From contig JAQUOU010000023.1 in the NCBI GenBank assembly GCA_028716975.1, positions 1 through 64,000 of the forward strand: 64,000 nt of DNA, read 5' to 3'. Below the pieces are notes generated by a model, which was given only the letters and a program-made list of their open reading frames with translations, was not told where the DNA came from and searched no databases. Of the stretch, positions 22,665 to 41,736 are shown one piece after another. The position numbers and the translations under genes are program-made. Position 1 is the stretch's first letter. Every line of letters begins with the position of its first letter. The stretch is from Methylobacter sp. Its GTDB lineage: Bacteria; Pseudomonadota; Gammaproteobacteria; Methylococcales; Methylomonadaceae.

Positions 22665-25418
22665 TTATGATTTCCTGATCAGCTTTAACCCGGGCGGCAA
22701 TGCCTCTCCAAACACCTGTTTTTCCTCTTTTTCATCCAGCTCTTTAACATGCTCAACCATGTCTATCCAGGATGACGGCGCTTTATTCAGTTTAAGTTTT
22801 TCGATGACTTGCCTGCGCATTTTTTCATCAATATCCCGCGCCCGGTCTCCGCTCATACGCGATATGAGCGTCGCGGCAAATCCGGCCTGGGGGATTTTCT
22901 TCCAATCTTCAAGCAGAATCTGCCGCATCCATTTATCTACAATATGGGCAGGAATAACATTGTGGCTGCTGCCGTGGAATGGCATGCGCGCGCCGATACG
23001 ACCGACCGCCCACCAGGTTTGATCGGGTTCGCTGGCTTTTTGCAGGCGTTTTAACAACCATTCTCCCAGTTGTATTTTCTTATTGACCGGTAACCGTTCC
23101 AGGACTGCCGCAAGACGAACCATATCATCGTAGCCGCGATTTTTGATTTGTTTGGCCATACCGGCCTGTCGTGCTGACGCAGGGTTAATATATTTGGCGA
23201 TATCAGCAAAAATTTGCTCCTGCGCCTGCCCATTCAATCCGCCGGCAATGCGCCGCCACAGCGTCCACCATTCAGTCCAGTTCTGGGTTTCATTAACAAA
23301 CTGTATGCCTTGCGGATAGGTTTTCCAAAGCTGTTCAACACGCCAGTCATCCAATGGGCAGCCAAAACCGGGCCGCAGGCAAAAACCGGCCAGACTCAGC
23401 CAGACTCTTTCGTGCGCATCGGAACGGCGGCGGTATTTCAATCCCTCTAACAGGACGGCGAACAGGGCTCTTAGTAAAGGCGTTTCCCATTCATTGCGCG
23501 AATAACCCAGTTGTTTTTCGAGATCGGCACGCAGGTTTTTTACCGCTTTAGGATCAATTTGCCTGGATTTTGAGCCAAAAACAGCCTGTATTTTTTCAAC
23601 GACTGCCGGAAATTGAACCGGTAATCCCGCCTCCGCTTGTACGGCTCCTTTCTTCCTGATCTGGAATTCAACATCCCAGCGTTGATGACTATCCTCGACA
23701 GCGACACATTGAATTTTAAGCGTGCCTACTTCAGTCTGGGTAACCGCCAACTGGACTATGGCTTCCGTATTCGACTTGTTTTCATCGCCTTCAAAGGCGA
23801 CAGCCAGAGGCGGCAAAGAATGAAACAGATCGGTAATATCTGTGATATCGCCCGGTTTGAACTCGTTATCACCGGACATGGAAACCAGGTGAAACCGTAC
23901 CGGCGTGCCTAAGCGTAAAGCAAAATGCCGATCCTTCAGGATGACCTCATCACCTTCTTCACTACCTTTTGGCAGGATACAGATGCCTTGCTGCTGACTT
24001 GAGTTATCCGTATCAACCAGCAAAAAATAACTGCGTGCAGCGCCGCCGCCGATTTTGATTTTCTTATCGCGCCGGGCTAGGGCATAACTCACCGCGCCCA
24101 AAGCTACGGAAAGCTCCGGGTATTTATTTTCAAGCAAGGCAGGCGCTTTAGAACGCCAGGAACTAATCAAGTCTACGACTCTTTGAGTAATAGGCTGGCT
24201 TCGGAACACGCCGCCGTTCAGCAAAACGGCATCGGGTACTTTGCCTCCTTGTTTTAAAGCTTCGCGGCAAGAATCTTCATGTAGCTTTAAAAATGCGGCT
24301 ATGTGCTTGCTGACTGCCGGTTCAGCCGCATAGGGCAAACCAAACTCAACCACGCCGCTGCGCTTTCGGTCGGGTAAATCATCAGCACCGGACAGGGGGA
24401 AAAAGCCATCCAGCGCAATGGCCCTGACTTCTTCCCTGGTCAGGGATACAGAACGGGAGCCGCCGATAAGCCGGGCGCCGCCGCCCAGTAAAGTGACATT
24501 CATATGTTCCGGCGCATCTTCAGCGAGCAAGCGTTCTTTAGCAAGCCGGCATTGTTCAATCAGTTGCGATAAATCAGCGGCCGACAAGCGTTTTTCATCC
24601 TGCGTCAGACGGTTTTCCGCCAAATGAGCAAGCGCCAGATCAATATTGTCTCCGCCCAGCATTAAATGATCGCCAACAGCGATGCGGGTTAGCTTGGGCT
24701 CCGGCTCGCCATGCTCAATCTTGATCAGAGTCAAATCCGTCGTGCCGCCGCCGACATCGCACACCAGCAATAAATGGACATTAGCCATTGCCTGTTTAAT
24801 ATTTCCTGTATTACGTCTTAGCCAGTCATAACAAACCGCCTGGGGCTCTTCCAACAGCCGGATATGATTGAGTCCGGCGATTTGCGCCGCCTCCAGGGTC
24901 AGTGACCGCGCCGCCTCATCAAATGAAGCAGGAACAGTAATAACAATATCCTGCTTTTCCAAAGGCGCGTCAGGAAATTTATGCCTCCAGACTGTGCGAA
25001 TATGGGCCAGGTAACTGGCGCTGGCATGAATGGGTGAAACCTTGCTGACCTCCTCGCTGCTGCCCCAGGGTAGAATTTCAGCGCTATGATCAACCGAAGG
25101 ATGAGATAGCCAGCTTTTGGCGCTGGTGACAAACCTTCCTTTGGTTTTTGCGCCTAACAAGCGGGCAGCTTCACCTATGACGGCGTCTTCGCCCGCTGGC
25201 GAAAAACTGACATCCGCTTCTGACAATTCGCCTTCGGCAGGATGGTAGCGTACCGATGGCAGCAAATTCCTGGCAGCTACTTGTCCCGGGGCAATGAGCT
25301 GCTCGATCTGAAAAATCCGTATGTCCGGATTGGCCTTATCGGCTTTGGCAAAAGCTACAACCGTATGTGTTGTGCCTAAGTCGATGCCGACTAAAAATTG
25401 AGGAGATTGAATGTGCAT
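22665..25418 (-). CDS. Large Hsp70-family protein (DUF3731 type)
   Basis: The 917-residue protein has a DnaK-like actin-fold ATPase domain. VGIDLGTTHTVVAF (11-24) is the phosphate-1 loop, VCDVGGGTTDLTLI the phosphate-2 loop, and LLNGGVFRS the adenosine-side motif. Beyond about residue 520 it departs from DnaK. Instead of the usual substrate-binding domain and lid it carries a long C-terminal region like the proteobacterial Hsp70 proteins annotated with DUF3731. A chaperone-like ATPase role is inferred. Clients and co-chaperones are unknown. No dnaJ or grpE gene is adjacent. The gene looks intact. Confidence 0.82.
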   Translation of the reverse strand: MHIQSPQFLVGIDLGTTHTVVAFAKADKANPDIRIFQIEQLIAPGQVAARNLLPSVRYHPAEGELSEADVSFSPAGEDAVIGEAARLLGAKTKGRFVTSAKSWLSHPSVDHSAEILPWGSSEEVSKVSPIHASASYLAHIRTVWRHKFPDAPLEKQDIVITVPASFDEAARSLTLEAAQIAGLNHIRLLEEPQAVCYDWLRRNTGNIKQAMANVHLLLVCDVGGGTTDLTLIKIEHGEPEPKLTRIAVGDHLMLGGDNIDLALAHLAENRLTQDEKRLSAADLSQLIEQCRLAKERLLAEDAPEHMNVTLLGGGARLIGGSRSVSLTREEVRAIALDGFFPLSGADDLPDRKRSGVVEFGLPYAAEPAVSKHIAAFLKLHEDSCREALKQGGKVPDAVLLNGGVFRSQPITQRVVDLISSWRSKAPALLENKYPELSVALGAVSYALARRDKKIKIGGGAARSYFLLVDTDNSSQQQGICILPKGSEEGDEVILKDRHFALRLGTPVRFHLVSMSGDNEFKPGDITDITDLFHSLPPLAVAFEGDENKSNTEAIVQLAVTQTEVGTLKIQCVAVEDSHQRWDVEFQIRKKGAVQAEAGLPVQFPAVVEKIQAVFGSKSRQIDPKAVKNLRADLEKQLGYSRNEWETPLLRALFAVLLEGLKYRRRSDAHERVWLSLAGFCLRPGFGCPLDDWRVEQLWKTYPQGIQFVNETQNWTEWWTLWRRIAGGLNGQAQEQIFADIAKYINPASARQAGMAKQIKNRGYDDMVRLAAVLERLPVNKKIQLGEWLLKRLQKASEPDQTWWAVGRIGARMPFHGSSHNVIPAHIVDKWMRQILLEDWKKIPQAGFAATLISRMSGDRARDIDEKMRRQVIEKLKLNKAPSSWIDMVEHVKELDEKEEKQVFGEALPPGLKLIRKS

Positions 25419-27612: not shown

Positions 27613-27708
27613 ATGACAACCTATTTTGCCCATAGTGAAAACGATCATAATAACTGGCATTTGCTAAAGCTGCATCTGGCTTCAGTTGCAAGATTGGCTG
27701 GTGAATAA
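27613..27708 (+). pseudogene. Relic of a cas3 5' end
   Basis: A 31-codon frame reads MTTYFAHSENDHNNWHLL and continues to LASVARLAGE, then stops. This matches the typical N-terminus of a type I Cas3 HD-nuclease domain (xYFAHS..D...WHxLxxHLxxVAxLAxEFA). The rest of that cas3 is missing. It sits 55 bases before cas5, which is where cas3 lies in canonical type I-C loci. A different, complete cas3 is present further down at 31450. I read this as the left scar of a replacement of the interference module. The match is from family knowledge, not alignment. Confidence 0.6.
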
Positions 27709-27763
27709 TACCCATAAACTCTTTTTAAAGGTACGGATTAAAACATTATTGGAGCCTTTTAAA

Positions 27764-28399
27764 ATGTACTCAATTGAACTCGAAATTTCCGCACCTACAG
27801 CCATGTGGGCTCGACCTGACACTGGAGATTCACCAGTGAGTTACGCCGCACCGACTTATGCCGCAGCAAAAGGAATTCTTGAGTCTATTCTTTGGCTGCA
27901 ATCTGTGAATGTTGCTCCAGTGAGAGTAGAAATTTGCCGGCCTTTGGTTTTTCAAAATTACACCACCAACTATGGCGGCCCCTTACGAAAGTCAAAATCC
28001 ATAAACAAAGGCGCGGGTTATCAGCTACTCGTAACCGTATTAACCGACGTATGCTATCGAATCTATGCCGATTTATACCCACAGAACCATGGTCAATTTT
28101 CTAATAAAGCCTTGGCGCAATTACAGCGATCAACCAATTCAACCCATGCCTATAAAGACATGTTTAATCGACGATTAAAGCGGGGGCAGTGCTTTTCCAT
28201 GCCCTGTATGGGCTGGAAAGAGTTTGTGCCGGATTATGTGGGTGTTTTGAGGGAAGAAAACGGCCCGTGTGCCGATATTAATCTGGAGTTGCCCAGCATG
28301 TTGCATCAGACCTTTTCTAAAGGCTTGCACAGCGAATACAGCCCGACTTATCGGCAAAACGTCAAAATAGTGAAGGGAGTGCTGAATTATGTTGAATGA
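27764..28399 (+). CDS. cas5c: CRISPR-associated Cas5 (I-C type, Cas5d/Cas5c)
   Basis: The 211-residue RAMP protein opens MYSIELEISAPTAMWARP. It contains SYAAPTYAAAKGILESILW and the I-C hallmark AYKDMFNRRLKRGQCFSMP, followed by GWKEF. In I-C systems Cas5 replaces Cas6 and cuts pre-crRNA at the repeat stem base, then caps the crRNA 5' handle in Cascade. The start at 27764 is chosen because GGAG lies nine bases upstream and the homology begins there. A longer frame from 27686 lacks support. It overlaps cas8 by 11 bases. The sequence appears divergent from commonly seen I-C Cas5 proteins. Confidence 0.85.
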   Translation: MYSIELEISAPTAMWARPDTGDSPVSYAAPTYAAAKGILESILWLQSVNVAPVRVEICRPLVFQNYTTNYGGPLRKSKSINKGAGYQLLVTVLTDVCYRIYADLYPQNHGQFSNKALAQLQRSTNSTHAYKDMFNRRLKRGQCFSMPCMGWKEFVPDYVGVLREENGPCADINLELPSMLHQTFSKGLHSEYSPTYRQNVKIVKGVLNYVE

Positions 28400-30449
28400 G
28401 CTTTATGCCTTATCTGCTATTCTGAATGATACAGGTGTTAAAACAGAAATATGGCACAAAAACTTTGTGCCTAACCCTAAAACAGCAACATTCCGTATTT
28501 TAGTGGACGATGAGGGAAATATTGCAGGTATAGAAACTATCACAGACGAAAAGGCAAAAACAGCCATCAGAAAATGGGAAACTTCCAACGGCAATTCTTT
28601 CCCTTCTTTTAATGTCACGCCGCTATATGATTTGACCCAGAATGAAACGCTTATTGAGCAAGCTAAAGAACTCAAAAAGCAACTTGATAAAGATAAACCT
28701 ATCAATACTGAACATTTAAAGACACTCATTGAGCAAGCCGCTAATCTTTGGGAAGGTCAACAAAAATTAGCTAAATGCTTAAATCAGATTCCTCAAGATA
28801 TGGGGAAATTAATAACTGAATCTACAGCAGAAAACCAGGCTCTTCTTTCATTGACACAGCGTATTTTAAAAACCACCCCGCAACAATTTCATCAGCAATT
28901 AACGGATTGTCTTTTGAGTCAGGAAAACCTATTTCCATTTTTTGAATTGCTGTTTTTTTATACTGGCGCAAAAAAAAATACCTGTTTGGTTCTTGAGGTT
29001 TCTGACAGATCAAAATTTGAATATCCAGCCAATCACACTAAAGCTCAAAGTTGGTTTAATCAATGCTTACTTTCTGTTGGCAAAAATGCAGCGGCATCTT
29101 CTGATAAAGATGCTTATGGAGCCGTTAATAATGGCTGGCAAGAAAAATTTGGCGCAATCAGAATGAACATACTGGGCGATGTGACATTACGCGCCATGAA
29201 TGATGAGTCTCGCTGCCAATACCGGTATGGACAAATCAATGCAACGGGGAATCCGGTTGGTGTGCAAACGCGTGAGGCCATGTCCAGCGCGTTAGGCTGG
29301 CTCTCTCACCCTGATCGGAAAAAGAAAACCTGGACTGACATTTCACGAAGTAAAGGTGAGAAAGCATTATTGTTTGCGTACCCATCTGTTATGCCGGAAG
29401 AAGATGCTGAATATGCGCTGTTATTCGGGGGAGCGGTTGATGAAGATGGCGTAAAATTTGAAGCCTGTGCTGAGAGAGTGCTTAAATCGCTAAGCCAGAT
29501 TCCAAAAACCATCGAAGCACAAATGCAAATTTTTGTGCTATCCAAGCCTGACGGTTTTCGTACTAAAGTCCAATTTAGTCACAATTGCTCTATCGACCAC
29601 TTTATTCAGGCGGCGCAAGACTGGCAAACAGGTTGCCGTAATTTGCCGCCTTTAACCATCCGTACTTTTGGTGAAGATAAAAAGCCGACCTGGAGTGAGC
29701 CGCTAACGCCGTACCCGGAAGAAATTGTATGGTGCTTGAACACAGTATGGACACACTTTGGCACTCAAGCCAGTCTTATCAAGCAATTTAACATGGGTGA
29801 TGCGCTGGATTTATTGTTGGATTCCGGCTTAAAGCTCACCCACACCGTTAAAGCTTTATTGGCCGCCATTCTCAAAAACAACCAATCTTTCTTGCTGGCT
29901 TTAGGCAATGCTCATCATATCGGCAGAGTTCATAGCATACCCAAGAGCTACAACAAACAGGCATTGTTATTACCCAGTGTCCTGGCTTTATTGCTTGATA
30001 AATCGAATCTTACCAACGAGGCTTATATGAAATTACCCGCTTACCTTATTGGGCGTTTGCTCAGTGTTGCTGACCAACTGCACGATAAATATTGCAAATA
30101 TGTAAGAAAAGATTCCAGACCGCCGCAATTGCTTGGGAATGCACTAATGGCAATTGCATTGGAACACCCTAAACAGGCGTTGGCTATGTTTTCGCAGCGC
30201 ATGTTGCCTTATCAAGCGTGGGCAAGAACTTATTCTGACCCAGATCCTAAAAAAGAAGCTGGACTCGTTCATTTTTTTCTAAATGAATGGGGCACAATTT
30301 GCAGCCAATTAAAAGAGTTGGAAACAGAAATACCAATACGTTGTAGTGATATCGACAAAACTTCTATGTTGCTCGGTTATCTTGCCAGCACTGCTAAAAA
30401 AGACCAACCAGAACCCTCAACACCAGGAGAATTAAATGAGTCAAAATAA
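28389..30449 (+). CDS. cas8c: Cas8c/Csd1-like Cascade large subunit
   Basis: The 686-residue protein lies between cas5 and cas7, the position of the I-C large subunit. Its start (MLNELYALSAIL, then FRILVDDEGNIAGIETI) and its C-terminal AYLIGRLLSVADQLHDKY resemble Csd1, but the middle is divergent. It is about 80-100 residues longer than usual I-C Cas8. The large subunit recognises the PAM and recruits Cas3. It overlaps cas5 by 11 bases and cas7 by 14 bases. A strong internal start near codon 547 may yield a separate Cas11 small subunit. The subtype label rests mainly on context. Confidence 0.75.
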   Translation: MLNELYALSAILNDTGVKTEIWHKNFVPNPKTATFRILVDDEGNIAGIETITDEKAKTAIRKWETSNGNSFPSFNVTPLYDLTQNETLIEQAKELKKQLDKDKPINTEHLKTLIEQAANLWEGQQKLAKCLNQIPQDMGKLITESTAENQALLSLTQRILKTTPQQFHQQLTDCLLSQENLFPFFELLFFYTGAKKNTCLVLEVSDRSKFEYPANHTKAQSWFNQCLLSVGKNAAASSDKDAYGAVNNGWQEKFGAIRMNILGDVTLRAMNDESRCQYRYGQINATGNPVGVQTREAMSSALGWLSHPDRKKKTWTDISRSKGEKALLFAYPSVMPEEDAEYALLFGGAVDEDGVKFEACAERVLKSLSQIPKTIEAQMQIFVLSKPDGFRTKVQFSHNCSIDHFIQAAQDWQTGCRNLPPLTIRTFGEDKKPTWSEPLTPYPEEIVWCLNTVWTHFGTQASLIKQFNMGDALDLLLDSGLKLTHTVKALLAAILKNNQSFLLALGNAHHIGRVHSIPKSYNKQALLLPSVLALLLDKSNLTNEAYMKLPAYLIGRLLSVADQLHDKYCKYVRKDSRPPQLLGNALMAIALEHPKQALAMFSQRMLPYQAWARTYSDPDPKKEAGLVHFFLNEWGTICSQLKELETEIPIRCSDIDKTSMLLGYLASTAKKDQPEPSTPGELNESK
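30027..30449 (+). CDS. Candidate internal Cas11c small subunit within cas8
   Basis: An in-frame ATG at codon 547 of cas8 is preceded by ACGAGG five bases upstream, a good ribosome site inside a coding region. Translation from it would give 140 residues starting MKLPAYLIGRLLSVADQL, the helical C-terminus of Cas8. In characterised type I-C systems the small subunit Cas11c is made in this way from the equivalent part of cas8c, and is of similar length. This is inference from the motif and family precedent. No separate cas11 gene is present elsewhere in the locus. Confidence 0.5.
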   Translation: MKLPAYLIGRLLSVADQLHDKYCKYVRKDSRPPQLLGNALMAIALEHPKQALAMFSQRMLPYQAWARTYSDPDPKKEAGLVHFFLNEWGTICSQLKELETEIPIRCSDIDKTSMLLGYLASTAKKDQPEPSTPGELNESK

Positions 30450-31290
30450 TCAAATGTTACGCGCCACGGGACTATTGGTCATCGAAGTTATCAACTCAAA
30501 CCCAAACGGTGACCCAGACCGCGAAAGCGACCCAAGGCAACGCCACGATTTTAGAGGTGAAATCTCTCCAGTTTCCTTTAAACGCAAATTGCGCGATTTG
30601 ATTGCCGATAAAGAAGGCGTTGTTTGGCAAGCGTTACAACAAGAATTACAGCTAGAACAGGAACAGTTTTATATCCTTGAATCTCGCGGACGGGATAGAA
30701 AGCAAATTGAAACTGAATTAAAAGATGAAGCCAAGGAATTTAAAGAAAAATACTGGGATGGACGTGTTTTCGGTAATACTTTTTTAGAAAGCGGTGGATC
30801 AACCACTATTAAAACGGGTGTTGTCCAGTTTGGTTTAGGTGTTTCCGTCGCGCCTGTCGATATTGAACGCCACACAAATACCAACATGTCAGGCGTACAA
30901 GAAGGCAAAGACCGAGGCATGGCACCGATGGGCTATCGCTTTGTGCCGCATGGCGTGTACTGTATGCCGTTTTTTGTGAACCCTAGTCAAGCGCACAAAA
31001 CAGGCTGCACAGTCCAGGATATTGAGCTGATGAAAAAAGTCATTGCCCATGCCTATGCACATACGCGCTCCCATGCGCGGCCTTCTGTTGATCTACGTCA
31101 TGCTTGGTACATTGAACATGAAAATTCGCTAGGTTCCTGCTCTGATTTTGCTTTGATGGATGCGTTAAGACCTATAAAGAAAGCTAATCCAGATGAGGCA
31201 TCCACCAATTGGGCAGATTACGACGTGCCTACCGCTTTACCTGAAAATCTTCAGGCAAAAGTAAAGCCCTTAGTTGATTTGGTAGGTTAA
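30436..31290 (+). CDS. cas7c: CRISPR-associated Cas7 (Csd2-like backbone subunit)
   Basis: The 284-residue protein has the Csd2/Csh2 opening LLVIEVINSNPNGDPD (NPNGDPD at 22-28). It also contains TGVVQFGLGVSVAPV and HTRSHARPSVDLRHAW. Multiple Cas7 copies form the crRNA-binding backbone of Cascade. AGGAG lies about eight bases upstream of the ATG, inside the end of cas8, with a 14-base overlap. In canonical I-C loci cas4 would follow. Here a repeat element and cas3 come next. Confidence 0.85.
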   Translation: MSQNNQMLRATGLLVIEVINSNPNGDPDRESDPRQRHDFRGEISPVSFKRKLRDLIADKEGVVWQALQQELQLEQEQFYILESRGRDRKQIETELKDEAKEFKEKYWDGRVFGNTFLESGGSTTIKTGVVQFGLGVSVAPVDIERHTNTNMSGVQEGKDRGMAPMGYRFVPHGVYCMPFFVNPSQAHKTGCTVQDIELMKKVIAHAYAHTRSHARPSVDLRHAWYIEHENSLGSCSDFALMDALRPIKKANPDEASTNWADYDVPTALPENLQAKVKPLVDLVG

Positions 31291-31315
31291 TAACATGTCG
31301 TTATATATATCTTTC

Positions 31316-31432
31316 ATTCAAATCCGTCATTCCGGCAGGGATTACCGGAATCCAGGCTACATGGACGTATTCAAGCCTGCCATCCGTGGCACTGGATACC
31401 CGCTCCCGGCGGGTATGACGGCATTTGCGTGT
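31316..31432. repeat. Dispersed inverted-repeat element between cas7 and cas3
   Basis: The ends CCGTCATTCCGGCAGGGAT and CGGCGGGTATGACGG are imperfect inverted complements about 115 bases apart. The unit resembles the palindrome at 57825-57888 (CGTCATACCGGCAGGGAT). It fills nearly the whole 155-base gap between cas7 and cas3, so cas3 may be transcribed less efficiently or from its own promoter. No coding capacity. Confidence 0.6.
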
Positions 31433-31449
31433 AAAGTATGGGCTAAGTG

Positions 31450-33666
31450 ATGGAACTACTCGCCCACAGCGCCAAGATTGATAAGTGTATACCCGCCCAA
31501 TCTTATGAAGAACATATTTTAAATGCCCGTCAACTGGCTTTTAAAAAGGCGCAACAGGCGGGTAAGTTTGCGCCCAATTTAAAAGAATCGCTGGCTCAGG
31601 TTGCTTGGTTGGCCGCTGAATTTCACGATATGGGTAAGGTGGACGATAACAATCAGGCGGTACTGTCGGGTCAAAAGAAAAGCAAAAAACTACCGATAAA
31701 CCATGTTGATTCGGGCGTGGCGCATCTTTGGCAACTGGGGAAAAATAATCTTCTTGCTTTGCTAGCTGCAATGGTCTCTTATGCTCATCATATTGGTTTA
31801 CAGAGCAAAGCGGGAGAAGAGTCTAAAGGCTCTAAAAAATATAGAGATGCAAATCTAATTGAATATACTGCGGAGCATCTGCCAGGTTATTTTGAGCGGC
31901 ACAGAGCAGTTATAGATGAATGGCAAAACCAAACCAAACCGTCGCTACCAAAACCTGAACAACTGGCTTTATTTTTACGCTTCGCACTTTCTTGTCTTGC
32001 CGATGCCGATCATGGCGATACGGCAAGGCATTATGGCGAGCCTAAAGTAAATCAAACCTTTTCTTTAAAACCGGTTGAACGCTTAACGGCACTCGATACT
32101 TATGTGGCTGGTTTAGCAAAAGACAATGCCAACGAACTTCGTACTCAGCTAAGAAATTCAGTTTATGAAGCGTGCAAACAAGCTTCAACCGAATCCTCGC
32201 TTTATGCTTGCGATAGCCCGGTTGGCACAGGCAAAACCACCGCAGTCATGGCGCATATGCTCAACTCAGCCAAGACTAAAGGCTTGCAGCGTATTTTTGT
32301 AGTTTTACCTTTCACCAACATCATCGACCAGTCAGTTGATACCTATAGAAAAGCTTTGGTTTTAAAGGGCGAAGACCCGGAACATATAGTAGCCGCCCAT
32401 TATCACAAAGCTGATTTTTCTAAGCCGGAATCACGTCAATACACTTACCTATGGCAAGCTCCGATTGTCGTAACCACCGCCGTGCAATTTTTTGAAACCT
32501 TAGCTAGCAATCAACCAGCAACTTTGCGCAAACTGCATCAACTGGCAGGTTCAGCTATTTTTATTGATGAGTCCCATGCAGCCTTACCTAGCCATTTATG
32601 GCCGCAAGCTTGGCAATGGTTAAGGCAATTAAGCCAAGATTGGGGTTGTCATATCGTATTGGCTTCCGGTTCTTTAACACGATTTTGGGAATTGGATGAT
32701 TTTGTTAATCCTGTCGTTAAACTACCCGAACTGGTTAAACAAGAGATACGCCAACAATGCTTACAGCTCGAACAGGCAAGAGTTAAACCGGAAACTCGCC
32801 AGGAAGCTTTAAATTTAGCGGACTTAGCTGAATGGGTATTTGATGAAACTGGCCCCCGGTTGCTTATTTTAAACACCGTGCAATCAGCCGCTGTCACTGC
32901 CCAATATATTGCCGAACATAAAGATTACGGCAGAGAAAAAGTTGAACACCTTTCAACGGCATTAACGCCATTAGACCGTAATAAAACTTTAGATAAAGTT
33001 AAAGCCCGATTAAAAGATAAGCAAGATAACAATTGGGTTTTAGTGGCTACCTCGTGCGTAGAAGCGGGCGTTGATCTGTCTTTCAAAACAGGTTTTAGGG
33101 AGCGTTGTAGTTTGGTCAGTTTGTTGCAAACGGCGGGGCGTATTAATCGAGAAAATCTTGAAACAGAAGCTACTGTGTGGGACTTTTCGTTGAAATTTGA
33201 AGAAGGCTTAAAAAAGCATCCCGCCTTTAATGACTCGGCGCGTATTTTAGGTAAGTTATTTGAAAGTAATGAAGTTTCTCCTGAATCCTGCCGTGAAGCT
33301 TTAAAAAGGGAAATCAGACAAGGAACACCGGTTCATGGAATTATGAAGCAACTCAAAAAAGCTGAGAAAAATTTAGATTTTCCAGAAGTTGAACAACTGT
33401 TTAAGGTCATCAGTAGTTACACCATCACCGTATTAGTTGATGATGAAATTATCAACAGACTCAAAAACTGGCTATCAGTAAGTCGTGATGAAATTCAAAA
33501 AAATAGTGTGCAAATATGGAGTTATAAAAAAGAAGATTGGGGAGTCAGCGAAATACCCAATCGCCCTGAACTGTATTGTAATTTAGATTATGATGATTTC
33601 ATTGGCTATATGAAAGGAGGATTAGCTTCAGAAAATGCAAAAAGTGGTGCACCCTTGCAGATATGA
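31450..33666 (+). CDS. cas3: Cas3 HD nuclease-helicase
   Basis: The 738-residue Cas3 degrades DNA marked by Cascade. The N-terminal HD nuclease shows AEFHDMGK (His59-Asp60), HHIG (113-116) and DADHGD near 185. The superfamily 2 helicase follows: Walker A DSPVGTGKTT (255-264), DEAD-like box IDESH (372-376), and motif VI QTAGRINRE (560-568). A GTG three bases earlier could also serve as start. ATG 31450 is preferred, though neither has a strong ribosome site. Its N-terminus (MELLAHSAKIDKC) is unlike the cas3 relic at 27613, so it has a different ancestry. It lies after cas7 rather than at the head of the operon. Confidence 0.9.
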   Translation: MELLAHSAKIDKCIPAQSYEEHILNARQLAFKKAQQAGKFAPNLKESLAQVAWLAAEFHDMGKVDDNNQAVLSGQKKSKKLPINHVDSGVAHLWQLGKNNLLALLAAMVSYAHHIGLQSKAGEESKGSKKYRDANLIEYTAEHLPGYFERHRAVIDEWQNQTKPSLPKPEQLALFLRFALSCLADADHGDTARHYGEPKVNQTFSLKPVERLTALDTYVAGLAKDNANELRTQLRNSVYEACKQASTESSLYACDSPVGTGKTTAVMAHMLNSAKTKGLQRIFVVLPFTNIIDQSVDTYRKALVLKGEDPEHIVAAHYHKADFSKPESRQYTYLWQAPIVVTTAVQFFETLASNQPATLRKLHQLAGSAIFIDESHAALPSHLWPQAWQWLRQLSQDWGCHIVLASGSLTRFWELDDFVNPVVKLPELVKQEIRQQCLQLEQARVKPETRQEALNLADLAEWVFDETGPRLLILNTVQSAAVTAQYIAEHKDYGREKVEHLSTALTPLDRNKTLDKVKARLKDKQDNNWVLVATSCVEAGVDLSFKTGFRERCSLVSLLQTAGRINRENLETEATVWDFSLKFEEGLKKHPAFNDSARILGKLFESNEVSPESCREALKREIRQGTPVHGIMKQLKKAEKNLDFPEVEQLFKVISSYTITVLVDDEIINRLKNWLSVSRDEIQKNSVQIWSYKKEDWGVSEIPNRPELYCNLDYDDFIGYMKGGLASENAKSGAPLQI

Positions 33667-33781
33667 ATATATCGCCTAATGTGGATTAGATGCTGTTTGA
33701 AACGAACAACGCTGTGAGCTCCTCACTGGATCAGCTAAAGCATATTGTGTATTACAAAAACGTCAACAAGATTACTATCAT

Positions 33782-34014
<233 letters not shown>

Positions 34015-34018
<4 letters not shown>

Positions 34019-34143
34019 GTTTTCTGGTCGATGCGCATTTGCCGCGTCACTTGGCTTTAATGCTGAGAGAACAGGGCTATGATGCTATTCATACCCTGGA
34101 TTTGGCGGCAGGAATAAAGAGCCTCACTAAAGAGATTTTGTAA
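34015..34143 (+). pseudogene. Truncated DUF5615 PIN-like toxin
   Basis: Only 42 residues remain: MSFLVDAHLPRHLALMLREQ, then GYDAIHTLDLAAG and a short unrelated tail. The opening with FLVDAHLP (metal-binding Asp) is characteristic of DUF5615 toxins, which normally run to about 110 residues. The frame ends at 34143 and no remainder of the domain was found downstream, so this is a 3'-deleted toxin. It overlaps the DUF433 antitoxin by four bases, as intact pairs do. Confidence 0.75.
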
Positions 34144-34241
34144 ATACCTCTGGCAAAATAACAAAACGAAGTGAAATCCGGGAGCATGCTGGCTAATACC
34201 CCGGCTTCCATAAACACCATCCGGTCTACTTGTTGTTTTAT

Positions 34242-34288
34242 TTGTGGATAAAGGTAAACCTGCTACAATCTAGCTAACTAATTAGCTA
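34242..34288 (+). promoter_or_regulatory. Promoter and palindromic operator of the phd-type antitoxin
   Basis: A -10 box TACAAT lies at 34264-34269, with a weak -35 TTGTGG at 34242-34247 (16-bp spacing). Directly downstream is an 18-bp palindrome, TAGCTAA-CTAA-TTAGCTA (34271-34288), ending 12 bases before the antitoxin ATG. Phd/YefM antitoxins typically repress their own operons from such palindromes overlapping the transcription start. Confidence 0.6.
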
Positions 34289-34300
34289 AATGATAACCCG

Positions 34301-34531
34301 ATGAAACAAACGATTAACATCCACGAAGCCAAAACCCGGCTTTCCCAATTACTTCAGCAGGTGGAAATGGGCGATGAAATCATTATCTCACGAGCCAATA
34401 AACCCATCGCACGACTGATTGCCTATCAGGAAAAGCCGATAAAACGCCGTTTGGGAGAAGCAAAAGGCATGGTGGAAATCATGCCGGATTTCGATCAATT
34501 GCCGGAAGATTTCATGGAACATTTTGAATGA
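34301..34531 (+). CDS. Phd/YefM-family antitoxin
   Basis: The 76-residue protein begins MKQTINIHEAKTRLSQLLQQV and continues GDEIIISRANKPIARLI, the DNA-binding fold of Phd/YefM antitoxins. The C-terminus (LGEAKGMVEIMPDFDQLPED) is the toxin-neutralising tail seen in PIN-paired members. Its stop overlaps the PIN toxin start by four bases (ATGA). It is complete and has its own promoter/operator, although its toxin is frameshifted. It may persist as an autoregulated orphan antitoxin. Confidence 0.88.
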   Translation: MKQTINIHEAKTRLSQLLQQVEMGDEIIISRANKPIARLIAYQEKPIKRRLGEAKGMVEIMPDFDQLPEDFMEHFE

Positions 34532-34916
34532 AGGTTTTATTGGATACCTGTGCCTTTATCTGGCTCGTTACCGATGATCCGAAGTTATCGGAATTAGCCA
34601 AAGAAATTTTTCTGAATGATGACAACGAATTATTTCTCAGCGCAGTGACCGGTTTTGAAATTGCGGTTAAATACACAGCCTAGGCAAATTACGTTTGGCC
34701 GAATCGCCCAAGGAATTCGTGGTTAACCGTATGAACGCCAATGCCTTGACAGAATTACCGGTGTCCCTGATGCATGCCCTGTTATTACAAAATTTACCGT
34801 TGCATCATAAAGATCCATTCGATCGCCTGCTTGTTGCCCAAGCGATGATGAATCAAATACCTCTGCTAAGCGCCGATCAACAGCTTTCGGCTTATGCTAT
34901 TAATCGGCTGTGGTAA
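34528..34916 (+). pseudogene. Frameshifted PIN-domain toxin (VapC-like)
   Basis: The first frame gives MKVLLDTCAFIWLVTDDPKL and continues to TGFEIAVKY, then hits TAG at 34681. The protein resumes in another frame as SLGKLRLAESPKEF and continues through HHKDPFDRLLVAQAMM and LLSADQQ to the end. All PIN acidic positions (Asp6, the Glu of GFEI, the Asp of DPFDR) are recoverable across both frames. The lesion is at TACACAGCC (about 34674-34680), best explained by duplication of AC. The toxin is therefore inactive unless frameshifting occurs. Confidence 0.85.
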
Positions 34917-34944
34917 TTATTAACCGTCACCTTAGCGCATCATC

Positions 34945-35589
34945 ATGGAAATGACCCTGCCCGAACCACCCGACAAAATCCCGCTTTCCGCACTCAACCA
35001 ATACGCTTACTGCCCCAGGCGTTGTTATCTAATCCATGCGGAAGGTGAATTTACCGATAACATCCACACCCAAAGCGGCACGCTTGAACATGAACGCGTC
35101 GACCAATTGGCCCACGAGATTAAAAAAGGCGTTCGCGTCGAATTTGCATTGCCGGTTTGGTCTGACCTGCTCGGCATCAGCGGACGCTGCGATGCAGTGG
35201 AATTTCACCCGGACGGCAGTGTATTTCCCATTGAATACAAGCACGGCAAACGCAAGCAGTGGGACAATGGCGACATACAAGTCGCCGCCCAAGCGATGTG
35301 CCTGGAAGAAATGCTGAAAACCAGTATCCCGGCGGCCGCCGTTTATCACATACAAACCCGCAGGCGACGCGAAGTCGCTATAGACCAGGCATTGCGGAAC
35401 ACCGTCGCCATCACTGTAAAAGCCGTTGTTGACCTGCTCAACAGTCAGCAATGCCCGCCGCCTACCGAACATATCAAACGGTGTCCGCAGTGTTCGTTAA
35501 ATAGCCTGTGCAACCCGGAACTTCTTCACGAAAAAACCCGGTTACAGCAACTGTCGGCACAATTATTCAACATCGAATCAGACGCATGA
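34945..35589 (+). CDS. cas4: Cas4 exonuclease
   Basis: The 214-residue RecB-like nuclease has four conserved iron-sulphur cysteine positions: Cys23 and Cys27 (AYCPRRCYL) near the N-terminus, and Cys180, Cys183 and Cys189 (RCPQCSLNSLC) near the end. The nuclease triad appears as Asp83 (RCDAVEF) and Glu97-x-Lys99 (IEYKHGK). Cas4 trims prespacers and selects PAMs during adaptation with Cas1-Cas2. Its stop overlaps cas1 by four bases. No clear ribosome site precedes the ATG. Another ATG two codons later is equally possible. It is separated from cas3 by the TA remnants. Confidence 0.9.
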   Translation: MEMTLPEPPDKIPLSALNQYAYCPRRCYLIHAEGEFTDNIHTQSGTLEHERVDQLAHEIKKGVRVEFALPVWSDLLGISGRCDAVEFHPDGSVFPIEYKHGKRKQWDNGDIQVAAQAMCLEEMLKTSIPAAAVYHIQTRRRREVAIDQALRNTVAITVKAVVDLLNSQQCPPPTEHIKRCPQCSLNSLCNPELLHEKTRLQQLSAQLFNIESDA

Positions 35590-36620
35590 AACAACTCCTC
35601 AATACACTTTACGTTACCACGCCGGAAGCTTATTTAAGACTGGAAGGCGAAACCGTCTGCGTCATGATTGAAAAAGTGAAAAAATTACAAGTACCTCTGC
35701 ATCATTTAAATGCGTTTGTCCTGTTTGATAATGTCATGCTCAGTCCCGCGTTGCTGGGGCGTTGTGCCGCCGATGGCCGGTCCGTTATCTGGCTGAATCG
35801 CTCAGGCCGTTTTCAGGCTCGTATGGAAGGGCCTGTCAACGGCAATATTTTATTGCGCCAGGCCCAATACCGGGCCGCTGATGACGGTGAGTTAAGCTTG
35901 AAGATTGCCCTGCGCTTTATTGCCGGTAAAATTCGCAACAGCCGACAGGTTTTAATGCGCGGCGCTCGTGACAGCAAAAGCGAAGAGGAAAAAATCGCCC
36001 TGGTGCAAGCCGCCCGCTTACTGGCCGGAAATCTCAGTAAACTGGCGCATGCCCAATCGCCCGATACTGTGCGGGGTCTGGAAGGCGATTCTGCGTGCAT
36101 TTATTTTGCCGCCTTGCCCAATCTCATTCGCCCATCGGCACGCGAAACGTTTGCCTTCACGACCCGCAACCGCCGCCCGCCGCTGGACTCCTTTAACGCG
36201 CTTATTTCCTTTCTTTACGCGCTGGTATTGGGTGATTGCCGCTCAGCGCTGGAAACGGTTGGACTCGACCCGCAGCTTGGATTTCTGCATACGGTGCGTC
36301 CAGGCCGTGCCTCATTAGCGTTAGACTTGCTGGAAGAGTTTCGCGCACCGATTTGCGACCGGTTGGCGCTCACCTTAATTAACCGCGAGCAATTACAAGC
36401 CAAAGATTTCGATTACCGCGACGGCGGTAGCGTACTCCTGAACGATGCGGGCCGGAAAACCGTTATCTCCGCTTTTCAAACGCGAAAGCAGGAAGAAATT
36501 GCTCACCCTGTTTTGCAGCAACCCGTTTCCATCGGCTTATTGCCCCAGATACAAGCCCGCCTGTTAGCACGTTATTTACGCAAGGATATCGACAGCTATC
36601 TTCCTTACCTTCAACAATAA
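35586..36620 (+). CDS. cas1: Cas1 integrase (type I-C)
   Basis: The 344-residue protein begins MKQLLNTLYVTTPEAYLRLE, the usual I-C Cas1 opening. Metal-ligand candidates are Glu166 (RGLEGDSA), His235 (GFLHTV) and the acidic cluster at 247-251 (DLLEEFRAPICDR). Cas1 with Cas2 integrates new spacers. The start at 35586 overlaps the cas4 stop (ATGA). A longer upstream frame exists but lies inside cas4. The sequence looks intact, so the adaptation module may still function. Confidence 0.93.
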   Translation: MKQLLNTLYVTTPEAYLRLEGETVCVMIEKVKKLQVPLHHLNAFVLFDNVMLSPALLGRCAADGRSVIWLNRSGRFQARMEGPVNGNILLRQAQYRAADDGELSLKIALRFIAGKIRNSRQVLMRGARDSKSEEEKIALVQAARLLAGNLSKLAHAQSPDTVRGLEGDSACIYFAALPNLIRPSARETFAFTTRNRRPPLDSFNALISFLYALVLGDCRSALETVGLDPQLGFLHTVRPGRASLALDLLEEFRAPICDRLALTLINREQLQAKDFDYRDGGSVLLNDAGRKTVISAFQTRKQEEIAHPVLQQPVSIGLLPQIQARLLARYLRKDIDSYLPYLQQ

Positions 36621-36629
36621 TCCAATCCT

Positions 36630-36920
36630 ATGATGATCCTGATTACTTACGATGTATCCACCGAAAGCAGCGCAGGCCGCAGACGCTTGAGACGCGTGGC
36701 CAAAACCTGTTTAAATTACGGCCAGCGGGTACAAAAGTCTGTCTTTGAATGTCAGGTCAATGCTATGGAAATGGCTATATTGAAGGATCAATTACTGAAA
36801 GAAATTGATGAAGCGCAAGATAGTTTAAGAATTTACCGGATTATTGAACCTCTGGAGAAAAACCGCGAGGAATTTGGTAATACTCAGGCAACCAATTTTG
36901 AAAGCCCGCTTATTATATAA
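36630..36920 (+). CDS. cas2: Cas2
   Basis: The 96-residue protein has the Cas2 ferredoxin-like start ILITYDVSTESSAGRRRLRRV, with the conserved Asp in TYDV. It dimerises to bridge two Cas1 dimers in the integrase complex. It begins nine bases after cas1. The start codon is followed by another ATG, either of which could be used. The CRISPR leader begins directly after its stop. Confidence 0.93.
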   Translation: MMILITYDVSTESSAGRRRLRRVAKTCLNYGQRVQKSVFECQVNAMEMAILKDQLLKEIDEAQDSLRIYRIIEPLEKNREEFGNTQATNFESPLII

Positions 36921-37100
36921 AATCCGCGAACCTGAAGTGATGCCCAAAACCAGGTCAGGTTCGCAGCTCTTGTAATGCTATGAAACTTAAAAAAAATCCT
37001 CTTCCCTCTGCCATAATCGGCGGCACAATATGTTGAAGCCATTGACCTTCGCATTAATAGTATACATTCGCTATAATGCTCATAGCCTTGCAACAAGGCT
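36921..37100 (+). promoter_or_regulatory. CRISPR leader with promoter and repeat-adjacent hairpin
   Basis: The 180-base leader is AT-rich in its second half. A perfect -10 box TATAAT lies at 37072-37077 with a plausible -35 TTCGCA at 37048-37053. Transcription would then begin around 37084. From there to 37100 runs a palindrome, AGCCTTG-CAA-CAAGGCT, that abuts the first repeat exactly. New spacers should be inserted at this end, because the repeat at the far end is degenerate. Confidence 0.65.
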
Positions 37101-38002
37101 GTATCTCCCGGCCTAACCGCCGGGAGCGGATTGAAACTTTTTTTCCGCCAGCTCCAGCAACAAAACTTCCAGCGTATCTCCCGGCCTAACCGCCGGGAGC
37201 GGATTGAAACTGGTGAACGGACGTTATATTGCTATCAGATTTGAGTATCTCCCGGGCTAACCGCCGGGAGCGGATTGAAACATGATGACCTCTTTGCCCT
37301 GGCCCGCCAGCCGGTGTATCTCCCGGCCTAACCGCCGGGAGCGGATTGAAACTTTGATAAATTGCGAAATGGAGCGGCGGGTGTTGGTATCTCCCGGCCT
37401 AACCGCCGGGAGCGGATTGAAACTGCACATATCAACTATGGTTGGCCATAGCTCAAATGTATCTCCCGGCCTAACCGCCGGGAGCGGATTGAAACTTGTG
37501 TTTGAGGCGCAGCATAAATGGATTGTAATTGTATCTCCCGGCCTAACCGCCGGGAGCGGATTGAAACTGGCCCATCGTTTTAGATAATGCGCCTTTTAGC
37601 TGAGTATCTCCCGGCCTAACCGCCGGGAGCGGATTGAAACGATATTGAGCAGGCCGGCGTATGGTAGCTTACGCGCGTATCTCCCGGCCTAACCGCCGGG
37701 AGCGGATTGAAACTTAACAATGCGGCAAGGCTTTGACGGTAAAGAAGGGTATCTCCCGGCCTAACCGCCGGGAGCGGATTGAAACAGTCGAATCTTACCG
37801 TAATGTCAAGCCCATCTTACGTATCTCCCGGCCTAACCGCCGGGAGCGGATTGAAACGGTTGCTGATACATAGGTGGCTGATAAACCGGCGGGTATCTCC
37901 CGGCCTAACCGCCGGGAGCGGATTGAAACATGCACAAGACATTATTATTGATGCAGAACAAGAAGGTATCTCCCGGCCTAACCGCCGGGAGCGGATTGAA
38001 AT
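37101..38002 (+). CRISPR. CRISPR array, 13 repeats and 12 spacers
   Basis: The 37-base repeat starts GTATCTCCCGGCC and ends GGATTGAAAC. An internal 8-bp palindrome (CTCCCGGC and GCCGGGAG around CTAACC) gives the stem that Cas5 is expected to cut. Repeats start at 37101, 37174, 37245, 37316, 37387, 37459, 37531, 37604, 37677, 37749, 37821, 37893 and 37966. Spacers are 34-36 bases. Repeat 3 has a C-to-G change in the stem (CCCGGG). The last repeat ends in T instead of C, marking the leader-distal end. The GGATTGAAAC end fits type I-C handles. No spacer target could be searched. Confidence 0.97.
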
Positions 38003-38172: not shown

Positions 38173-39370
38173 CTATTGGAAAGCCGTTAACGCGGATTCC
38201 ACCCAGCTATAGCCGATCCTTTCTTGCTCAAGACGCAGGTTTTTGCGTATCCGGTTGTCGCGTAAATCATCATAAAGCGCCATTTCCTCAGGGTTCAGTC
38301 TGGGCAGGTCGCGCAGCGTCTGTTTCTCTTCCTCACCCCATAGCAATTCGAATGCCCGCAAGGTGGTGCGGTCCATCAGAATGGACTCCACATGGTCAAA
38401 CCGGCTACGAAGCTGATCAAGGATCGCGAAACCGTGAGTGTCGATATCACCCCAATAATGAATTGGGCAGCGCGAAAGCCATTTAGCTTTACTCACCATC
38501 TCGAAACCGTATCCCTCACCGAAGGTGACCAGGCTGTCCTTGACCTGCGGAAAAGCCAGGAAGTTAATTTCGTTCTCGGTGATGAAAACACGCGCGACAT
38601 CAGGATCGAGTCGGGCAAAGCTCAACGCATCAAGGGTGATATCCTGCTGGTGATCACCCGGCAACTGCCTGCCTTGAACATAACCGAAGGGATTGTGCTC
38701 AGGATCGAGAGTGCAGAAACGGACGCGCGCCGGTTTATCGCGAAACCCGTAACGCCTGGCGAATTGGCTCACTCCTGATGATGCCGGATCAATTACCCCA
38801 GGCGGCAAGACGATATCCAGCATTTCTACGAGCACGCAGCGGTGGGCTTCGATAAATTTGCTGTGCACACCCGGAATATCCACCTGCCTGAGGTACACGC
38901 CACGGCGTGGATGGGCTTGCAGCCAGGCAACGATTTCCAGCAGCCGACTCCACACGTGAAAATACCCCAGCGCCGGCAGCGGCCTTTTGGCCAGCCAATC
39001 CAGCAATAGCGGCTGATACTGGAGTGTGACCTTAATCAACTCATTGAAGCGAACGGCATCCCGGCGCTTATCGATAAGCGCCAAAGCATCTTCGATGCTA
39101 TCGATCCAGATTTCCTGAGGTACGGCGTTTGCACCGAATACCCGATGCTTGAAATCCCGCATCTCCAGCCGGCAGAGAGGTATCGCCCGAAGCTCACCGA
39201 TCCAGGCGCGTACCTCGTCAAAACGTTCAAGCATCTCTGCCGACGCAGGGCTCTTGAGCACTAAACGCTTCGGAAATAGCGGCTCGCCAGTGACAAGACT
39301 GGCCAGCAGCCCCCCGGTTCCATAGTTTTTGCATCTGGGTACGCACATCGGCCTGCCTTGTCCAGCTCAT
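38173..39370 (-). pseudogene. jetD: Frameshifted JetD (Wadjet topoisomerase-VI-like subunit)
   Basis: The body of the gene encodes the DUF3322/DUF2220 architecture of Wadjet JetD. It has GEPLFPKRLVLK near the start, and a TOPRIM-like C-terminal half with VFITENEINFLAFP and HYWGDIDTHGFAILD (the metal-binding DxD). JetD cleaves DNA extruded by the JetABC SMC-like complex and removes small plasmids. The natural start is the ATG at 39370 (MSWTRQADVRTQMQKLWNRG), which overlaps the jetC stop as ATGA. One extra G in a six-G run (39310-39315) throws the frame after about 19 codons. The rest is open to the end. Confidence 0.82.
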
Positions 39371-40182
39371 CCGGTTATCCTCGCCTTCTCCGCGCGGTAC
39401 TCCTCAATCGAGAGATTACGCAGTTTGGAAGCGCGGCCTTCCTCATTGTGGACAAACCCCACGCTGGAAATGAAAGGTTCAATGATGTGGATTTTTTGCA
39501 GGGGCGTGACGATCAGGATCTGTAAGTTGAGCTGGGCGAACAGCCGCAGGCCGTATTGCGCTGACTCGTCCGAACCGCGGCCGAAAGCCTCGTCTATCAC
39601 TACGAAACGGAAGGGGCGGGAACGCACTGCGCCCCATTCCAGACCGAACTGATAGGCTAGGCTCGCGGCCAGGATAGTGTAGGCCAGTTTCTCTTTTTGA
39701 CCCCCCGATTTGCCGCCCGAGTCGGAATAATGCTCGTATTCGCTATTGTCCTCGCGCCAGCGCTCGCTGGCTGCGAACACGAACCAGTTGCGCACATCGG
39801 TGACCTTGGCTGCCCAGCGGCGATCCTGTTCGGATATTCCCTCCCGTCCGCGAAAGCGCCCGATGATGTGTTTGACTTGCAGGAATTTGGCTTCGGAATA
39901 TTGGCTATCCTCAGAACCGGTCAGCGCCCCTTCGGTACAGGCGCGAAGTTCGTTCTGGAAATCGCGGATGACGGCATCCGGCGTCGGCTGAGCTTCCAGC
40001 ACGATATAGCGGCCGGTGTTGTAGTCACTCCGGGTGAGCGATTCGTTGATGCGCGCGATACGCTCCTTGATCGTTTCTCTCTCCCGGTTCAACTGCGAAT
40101 GAAAGTTCGCCACTTCGCGTATGGTGTTTTCGTTCAGCAATTCCTTAAATCGCGCTTCGAAACGCGGCAGATCGTCAGCCTG
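39367..40182 (-). pseudogene. jetC: C-terminal fragment of JetC (Wadjet SMC-like ATPase)
   Basis: About 271 residues remain of a protein that normally exceeds 1000. The fragment contains the end of a coiled coil, then the ABC signature SGGQKEKLAYTILAASL and the Walker B strand FVVIDEAFGRG, typical of MukB/SbcC-like JetC. The N-terminal Walker A half and most of the coiled coil are missing. The homology starts right after an in-frame TAG at 40183-40185. The next sequence upstream is the end of hsdS, so the breakpoint lies at about 40185-40269. The fragment cannot form a working ATPase. Confidence 0.82.
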
Positions 40183-40269
40183 CTACGCGCAGACAAGCAG
40201 GATATCCATTGCGTACTATTTCCAAAACACTCCGGTCAAACAAGCAGCACACACAAAAGTATTACATGC

Positions 40270-41736
40270 TCAACTTGCCGTATTTGGCAGTCCCAAAACC
40301 TCTTGATTGAACAAACGCAATGCATCTTGTTCCTTGGTAAAAGCGTTGTAACGTAGATTACTAGCGCGAAGCACAAGGCTGTTGATTTCGCGCATAAGTG
40401 CTACATCAGCAAGCAAGGGGATGGGTACTTCGGCAAGTTGGTACTGGTCAATTTCAAACACGACTGCGCCGTAGGTGTGGCGGCGTATCAGTGGTAACGC
40501 CCATTCAGAACTCAGCCACGCATACAAATAACCTGCCCATTCTGCGCTCGCAGGTACGACTCTCAGTATATGCTGACTACCCGCCCAGCCTTGCCAATGC
40601 TTAGGCACAATATTGACTTTGCCTATCGTGCCACTGCATGTAATCAAAGTCATATTCTCGCCCAGTGTCAATTGCTCGGCAATGCGTTCACCATGATGCT
40701 TGAGTGAAAGATATTTTTCACCGCGCGGGTCAAGTTCCAGAATTTCTTTACCGCCAAGAAACGGTATACCTTGTTTTTCATCGACATAAATCCGTTTGAA
40801 ACGCCCAGCTAAAATAATTTTTTCAGTAATTTGCTTATCGCCTAATGCTAAGACTCGCTCGGCTTGTTTATGTAAGTGCTGAGCGATTGCCTGTGCTAAT
40901 GGGTTGTGATAATTGGCTTCAAGGCGGTAGTTTAAATCCGCGATATTCACGCTGAAACTGCGTAGCCCATTGTCGCCGTTTCCTGGTGGATTCAACTCTT
41001 CAACCGCTGGTAGTTTTAGCGCGGCTTGCAATTTGGCGCGGGCTTGTTCAATCAGGGCGTTTGATTCATCACGCAGACGAAAAGATTCTGTAATGGTGTG
41101 ATGGATGTGGGTTTTAAGAATTGCTGGCGCGTCTGGAACCGGTAACTTTAACAAATGCGCGGGTTCAATGTGCTGAATTACCGCGCCGTAATTATTCGAC
41201 TGTATGAGTGTCCGTCCCTGTTCGCTTTTAAAATAAGCATACAAATAACCTGCATAGCGTTCATTATGACTACGAATTCTTAACAGGTCATGACTAAAAA
41301 TATTTCCTGCGAGCGTCTTGCTTACATAAGTAATGTTACCCACTGTGCCTGAACAGGTCATTAATATCTGACCTTCTGACACTCTAAGCGCATCTAAATC
41401 TGTAAGCGTTTTATCGGAAATATAGGCGGCAGGGGTTGGGTTTAATTCACCAGCTTGAGACGGTTGATAAATTGGAAATTTTGATTTTTGTACAAAGACG
41501 CGCTTGAACCGTGGACAATGGTAAATAGCAGCCAATTTGTGAATGGGAATACACCCGTGCGGATTTGATTGGATTACTCTTTCAGCTTGTTTTGCCTCTG
41601 TTGCAGAAACACTCGCCTCCAGCCGCAAGCCGCTCTCAAAGACGCTTTGAATGGGCAGACTCACCCAGCTAAAGGTTTGCGGCTGGAGGGGCGCATCCCA
41701 AGTTACGGGAGATTGATAAACATTCGGGGCTACCAT
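40270..41736 (-). CDS. hsdS: Restriction-modification specificity subunit (HsdS-like)
   Basis: The 488-residue protein has two target-recognition halves with matching internal repeats: GQILMTCSGTVGNITYV with AGYLYAYFKSEQG in the first, and NMTLITCSGTIGKVNIV with AGYLYAWLSSEWA in the second. A helical conserved spacer (SNALIEQARAKLQAAL) follows the first. HsdS subunits bind the bipartite DNA site and position the methylase. It overlaps the methylase gene by seven bases. Its 3' end lies next to the jetC breakpoint. No hsdR gene is in the window. Confidence 0.87.
   Translation of the reverse strand: MVAPNVYQSPVTWDAPLQPQTFSWVSLPIQSVFESGLRLEASVSATEAKQAERVIQSNPHGCIPIHKLAAIYHCPRFKRVFVQKSKFPIYQPSQAGELNPTPAAYISDKTLTDLDALRVSEGQILMTCSGTVGNITYVSKTLAGNIFSHDLLRIRSHNERYAGYLYAYFKSEQGRTLIQSNNYGAVIQHIEPAHLLKLPVPDAPAILKTHIHHTITESFRLRDESNALIEQARAKLQAALKLPAVEELNPPGNGDNGLRSFSVNIADLNYRLEANYHNPLAQAIAQHLHKQAERVLALGDKQITEKIILAGRFKRIYVDEKQGIPFLGGKEILELDPRGEKYLSLKHHGERIAEQLTLGENMTLITCSGTIGKVNIVPKHWQGWAGSQHILRVVPASAEWAGYLYAWLSSEWALPLIRRHTYGAVVFEIDQYQLAEVPIPLLADVALMREINSLVLRASNLRYNAFTKEQDALRLFNQEVLGLPNTAS

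Follow-up and report, generated by a model that had tools for sequence, protein, structure and literature searches.

In the 64,000-nucleotide stretch of Methylobacter sp. DNA analysed here (the window), the interference module of a resident type I-C CRISPR-Cas locus has very probably been replaced by a divergent cassette of the same subtype, leaving a complete I-C locus of mixed ancestry that probably works. The genes follow one another in the order cas5-cas8-cas7-cas3-cas4-cas1-cas2-CRISPR (27764-38002), and every cas frame is open and intact. The sequence-only reading that preceded this analysis had placed cas8, cas7 and cas3 within 28389-33666; its gene positions and intact frames proved right, but the feature really occupies 27613-38002, with a cas3 stub, cas5, cas4, cas1, cas2 and the CRISPR array added (Table 1). 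The host genome (4.28 Mb, estimated complete) has a single such site, and the divergent Cas8, the Cas1c match and the array repeat were each found once.

Table 1. Components of the mixed type I-C locus; positions are those of the window
Feature	Position	Strand	Basis
cas3 stub	27613..27708	+	first 31 codons of canonical I-C cas3, then stop
cas5 (Cas5c family)	27764..28399	+	PADLOC Cas5c 89 bits; solved Cas5c chains 3vzi, 8g9t, 7kha
cas8, divergent long Cas8c, 686 aa	28389..30449	+	PDLC01562 503 bits; AlphaFold2 fold vs 8g9t_K
internal ORF, Cas11c-like small subunit, 140 aa	30027..30449	+	Met547 start, conserved Shine-Dalgarno, 9jhb_B match
cas7 (Cas7c/Csd2-like backbone)	30436..31290	+	Pfam Cas_Cas7 184 bits; TIGR02589 128 bits, cut-off of 182 not reached
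dispersed palindromic repeat element in the cas7/cas3 gap	31318..31420	.	45 matches in own genome
cas3 (HD nuclease-helicase), divergent lineage	31450..33666	+	PADLOC Cas3c 357 bits; HD and helicase motif residues invariant
toxin-antitoxin genes or remnants at the interference-adaptation junction	33782..34916	+	Pfam
cas4, resident lineage	34945..35589	+	84.5% identity to canonical L114
cas1 (Cas1c), resident lineage	35586..36620	+	TIGR03640 491 bits; 89% identity to L116
cas2, resident lineage	36630..36920	+	84-89% identity to L114, L115, L116
CRISPR array, 13 repeats of 37 nt, 12 unique spacers of 34-36 nt	37101..38002	+	

Upstream of the locus, a large HSP70-like protein with a DUF3731 domain is encoded on the minus strand (22665-25418). 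Beside the array, also on the minus strand, lie a Wadjet JetD gene (38173-39348), a short SbcC/JetC-like ORF with a Walker B motif, possibly a fragment (39367-40140), and the specificity subunit of a type I restriction system (40270-41736). Lying next to the array, this group (38173-41736) suggests a defence island.

The effector of the window belongs genuinely to type I-C, although it is divergent, as follows from the score of its Cas8 against a Cas8c model, from the predicted full-length Cas8c fold and from an internal start for Cas11c. The Cas8c model of PADLOC, PDLC01562 (658 positions, labelled CAS-I-C and effector_LS), matches residues 1-675 with 503 bits, and six relatives of this Cas8 from several phyla match it over their full length with 437-680 bits. 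The suggestion that only the ends of Cas8 look familiar was thus mistaken. Its description as enlarged was correct, because the length counted from the first methionine has a median of 700 aa in 39 relatives and 597 aa in 20 canonical I-C loci. The profile check proposed together with that description gave a divided answer: the PADLOC model was matched, but the standard Csd1 model of NCBIfam, TIGR01863, was missed (17.4 bits against a curated cut-off of 218.65), which places the protein outside the canonical Csd1 branch. Similarity to Pfam Cas_Csd1 is weak (29.8 bits, cut-off 27), and a profile search of Cas8 against the sequences of solved structures returned chance hits only. An AlphaFold2 model built from 32 sequences (pLDDT 87, pTM 0.82) resembles solved Cas8c (Foldseek E 1.2e-11); alignment to the Cas8c chain 8g9t_K with VIA-align gave Z 22.5 over 528 of 582 residues, with an rmsd of 4.4 and 14% identity.

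In type I-C, Cas11c is the product of an internal start in cas8c (PMC7684278). Met547 is invariant in the divergent Cas8 family and is preceded by a strong Shine-Dalgarno sequence in all 32 loci, with a mean duplex energy of -9.0 kcal/mol, close to that of annotated starts (-9.1); the mean for other internal Met codons is -3.0. When the upstream codons were exchanged among synonyms from the same gene, the mean rose to -4.4 (s.d. 0.46), and none of 300 shuffles was as low as observed. A solved small-subunit chain, 9jhb_B, resembles residues 547-669 of the Cas8 model (Z 13.2, rmsd 2.1). Because selection on the Shine-Dalgarno sequence and a structural match coincide at the same place, the 140-codon frame within cas8 very likely gives Cas11c, with the modelled fold forming part of this evidence.

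The cas5 product, with its matches to Cas5c, is presumed to be the subunit that processes crRNA, and the genes identified between cas5 and the array did not include a Cas6. In Cas3, the HD residues H60, D61, K64, H86, H114 and D188 (ORF numbering) and the helicase motifs GxGKTT, DExH and QxxGRxNR are invariant across five aligned relatives. A careful tree of Cas7 puts divergent and canonical loci on opposite sides of one branch (100/100), and quick trees of Cas3 and Cas5 are likewise split by one branch with a support of 100. Together with a fixed gene order of its own, this full support sustains the earlier proposal of a distinct I-C variant. Within the canonical loci, L012, L124, L125 and L133 form a second subgroup with cas3 first, large Cas8 proteins (open frames of 665-703 aa), a Cas5 without the usual RxQR segment and a Cas7 group of its own in the tree (99/95).

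The relatives compared were 38 loci fetched via alignment, three from a genome search and one scaffold labelled as phage; the 38 come from Proteobacteria, Desulfobacterota-like bacteria, Acidobacteria, Spirochaetes, Omnitrophota, Clostridia, Planctomycetes, Gemmatimonadota and others. Wherever the context could be read, the proposed comparison of gene order among Cas8 relatives returned the same cas5-cas8-cas7-cas3, followed, where present, by cas4-cas1-cas2 and the array. Canonical I-C controls with a complete set have cas3-cas5-cas8-cas7 in 20 of 20 cases (a 21st control, L114, has cas4-cas1-cas2 only and was left out of this count). The sequence-only reading had named two things that would jointly speak against a distinct variant: many loci in the same order were indeed found, but a strong score of Cas8 to standard Csd1 was not.

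This reading had also supposed that cas3 had changed place and now stood last among the interference genes, behind a repeat element. It was right that cas3 follows cas7 behind a gap of 157 bp with a palindromic repeat, and an ordinary I-C locus rearranged in connection with that repeat would look so in the window. Such a move is nevertheless extremely unlikely: all readable relatives share the order and most of them have no gap, cas7 and cas3 overlapping or abutting there. The Cas3 tree contradicts it, because Cas3, Cas5 and Cas7 together form a separate lineage which brings its own cas3, and the front end of the original cas3 is still in place upstream of cas5. The repeat, dispersed in about 45 copies over the host genome, is an inserted genomic repeat and incidental here.

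The space between cas3 and cas4 contains unrelated accessory genes in the relatives, and no conserved additional gene was found in these gaps. In L009, L011, L018, L019 and L052 such genes look RhuM-like or KilA-N/Bro-like by eye, and the boundary between interference and adaptation genes resembles an insertion hotspot. In the window, it holds a DUF433 antitoxin with a cut DUF5615 and a Phd antitoxin with a PIN toxin gene split over two frames, so that both toxins look broken; in L015, one antitoxin-like and one PIN-like ORF occupy the same junction.

The two halves of the locus differ in ancestry. Cas4, Cas1 and Cas2 are 82-89% identical to those of canonical I-C loci from the same bacterial order (L114, L115, L116; best values 85% for Cas4 and 89% for both Cas1 and Cas2), and the 37-nt repeat differs from that of L116 by 1 nt. 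The effector genes are closest to those of other lineages at 41-71% (L043 from Gemmatimonadota and L015 from Betaproteobacteria), the best identities being 71% for Cas7, 52% for Cas3 and 41% for Cas8. Among 311 genomes of the host's order, the Cas8 model found this genome only, apart from one weak partial match (E 1e-4) to a canonical locus; a full-score Cas1c is present in 51 of them. GC3 is 35-46% in cas5-cas8-cas7-cas3 and 55-58% in cas4 and cas1, with cas2 (43%) being cassette-like. In the Cas1 tree, the window is nested among canonical loci (100/99); elsewhere in this tree, the divergent and canonical kinds are interleaved, with nine changes, at least four of them forced, and a single clade for the divergent kind is rejected (p_AU 2e-7). 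The closest effector relatives, L015 and L043, use 37-nt repeats too, and their Cas1 proteins are related; a match to such an adaptation module may therefore have existed in the donor already. Three spacer cores were compared with viral contigs, and none had an exact match.

A short ORF of 31 codons lies directly ahead of cas5 and reads MTTYFAHSENDHNNWHLLKLHLASVARLAGE. It aligns best, Met to Met, with the N-terminus of canonical Cas3 from L116 (E 1.4e-12), and L116 is thereby the source of both the stub match and the Cas1 match. At the nucleotide level, the stub shares 71 of 90 positions (79%) with L116 cas3, a divergence equal to that of the adaptation genes (78-80%). When the 700 bp upstream of cas5 were searched with a model of canonical Cas3 N-termini, 9 of 36 loci proved to have stubs, and a tenth (L027) lies further out; in control DNA, the model found nothing beyond real cas3 genes or the stubs themselves. 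The stubs, 31-189 aa long, invariably represent the N-terminus, share one direction and resemble different canonical Cas3 groups in different loci. Their association with loci bearing adaptation genes was not significant (p 0.13). L027 retains the most: what is left of its canonical cas3 (residues 25-68 and 411-640) precedes a canonical cas7 fragment (residues 42-283), and the divergent cas5-cas8-cas7-cas3 and cas4 come next. Because these remnants stand upstream of the cassette, gene arrangement suggests that it lands between the old cas7 and cas4, the old genes then being deleted. The front of cas3 was presumably kept because it lies next to the promoter and start region of the operon, which are retained. 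No canonical cas7 remnant was seen at the right-hand junction of the window.

One may ask whether the exchange went the other way, with the divergent effector as resident and the adaptation genes and array replaced by canonical ones. The Cas1 tree alone gives no direction, and cas4-cas1-cas2 and the array are one contiguous block. We consider this unlikely, because the whole effector set separates the canonical cas3 stub from the adaptation genes, and a second event would be needed to explain it. The remnants in L027 are also upstream of the cassette, and the effector is foreign to the host's order. Remnants of the divergent cas3, which would point to a divergent effector replaced by a canonical one, were searched for in the cas7-cas4 gaps of canonical loci and did not rise above chance. 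The stub itself might be a functional short ORF, a leader peptide or mini HD protein, and no relic; its recurrence upstream of cas5 in 10 of 36 loci with constant end and direction would agree with this. Such a role is nonetheless quite improbable for a sequence that most loci lack, whose length varies from 31 to 189 aa, which resembles different Cas3 groups in different loci and which in the window has no catalytic HD. Replacement of the resident effector genes by the divergent cassette is therefore retained as the explanation, and the best reading of the compared loci is that this swap has probably recurred.

Several relatives have no cas4-cas1-cas2 within 4 kb or more. Of 11 genomes checked, most of them with loci of this kind, 6 have a full-score Cas1c elsewhere. 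In L032 (1-18067), a divergent cassette without adaptation genes is located about 4.6 kb from canonical cas3-cas5 on the opposite strand, with Cas1c nearby on the same contig. These data fit a cassette able to share or take over resident adaptation genes. It is possible, and we propose it tentatively, at slightly less than an even chance, that cas5-cas8-cas7-cas3 is a portable cassette which, in different phyla, has repeatedly inserted itself between cas7 and cas4 of resident I-C loci, displaced their effectors and left graded cas3 stubs. If true, the loci would show effectors being replaced again and again within a single subtype, at several stages of the process. Scans for close relatives with Cas8 alone gave nothing in genome or viral contigs, viral contigs scanned with the Cas8 alignment gave no match, and neither did plasmids. 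One locus deposited as 'Bacteriophage sp.' (MT837094.1, L014) was not accepted as phage, since the record has the look of a bacterial scaffold under a wrong label or of an integrative element; its divergent cas5-cas8-cas7-cas3 lies beside apparent coding sequences of an integrase and GMP synthase (guaA).

The data show the protein families and fold, selection on the internal start, the split in gene order, the mixed ancestry and the stub; we infer the order of events, the activity of the system and the compatibility of its two halves as follows. The cas4-cas1-cas2 genes, repeat and array are those of the resident canonical I-C locus of the host's order. A divergent I-C cas5-cas8-cas7-cas3 cassette, with its own Cas3 behind cas7, would have been inserted where the old cas7 met cas4; of the old cas3-cas5-cas8-cas7, only the first 31 cas3 codons at the front of the operon would have escaped deletion. 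Cas5 would trim crRNA from the I-C-type repeat, and Cascade would consist of Cas5, Cas7, the long Cas8 and Cas11c, translated inside cas8. On binding its target, Cascade would recruit Cas3 to unwind and cut DNA. The resident Cas4-Cas1-Cas2 would add spacers to the shared array.

With the known type I-C systems of Desulfovibrio vulgaris (7kha/8dej) and the Neisseria lactamica type (8g9t), this system shares the Cas5c family, Cas7, the full-length Cas8c fold, the internal Cas11c start (predicted here), the HD-helicase Cas3, Cas4-Cas1c-Cas2 and a stem-loop repeat ending in ATTGAAAC. It differs from them in a Cas8 about 100 aa longer and below the Csd1 cut-off, in its own Cas3 lineage after cas7 and in other conserved residues of Cas5. 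The Cas8c signature, Cas5c without Cas6 in the locus, the internal start and Cas1c/Cas4/Cas2 with an I-C-like repeat are all present; the usual order cas3-cas5-cas8-cas7-cas4-cas1-cas2, which is not strictly defining, is not. By the features tested, the system belongs to type I-C and would work like it; within this subtype it forms a divergent branch whose gene order is different but fixed. The existence of PDLC01562 shows that the Cas8 protein family is already known; this model names the Cas8 protein only, and gene order, a separate Cas3 and module replacement lie outside it. Other I-C variants also depart from the standard, such as that of huge phages with a helicase in place of Cas3 (PMC7162821) and the degraded ones of Bacillus cereus (PMC7242445); these have no cas1/cas2 or cas3, while the locus of the window is complete. 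The main text of the 2025 classification treats I-C as one subtype, and neither a name for the variant nor such an arrangement was found there.

Recombination between effector and adaptation genes is usually inferred only from conflicting trees. In the locus of the window, the scar has an orientation: it is the front end of a cas3, with a divergence equal to that of the resident cas1. Since other loci keep longer stubs or a half-deleted module, the steps of the swap can be put in order. Shuffling of CRISPR adaptation and effector modules is well established (PMC6452270), and the independent histories of the two gene sets are common to those cases and to this one; here, both partners in the swap are I-C lineages, and the stub gives both direction and place. 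To known shuffling, the present case adds a directed and physically visible example within one subtype, with signs of recurrence.

Surveys based on TIGR01863 undercount the divergent lineage, because Csd1 models miss it, and its loci are annotated simply as I-C. In our opinion, I-C Cascade could usefully be compared with this lineage, given its long Cas8, its own Cas3 and the different residues of its Cas5; the lineage also provides a test of the interchangeability of I-C adaptation and interference parts.
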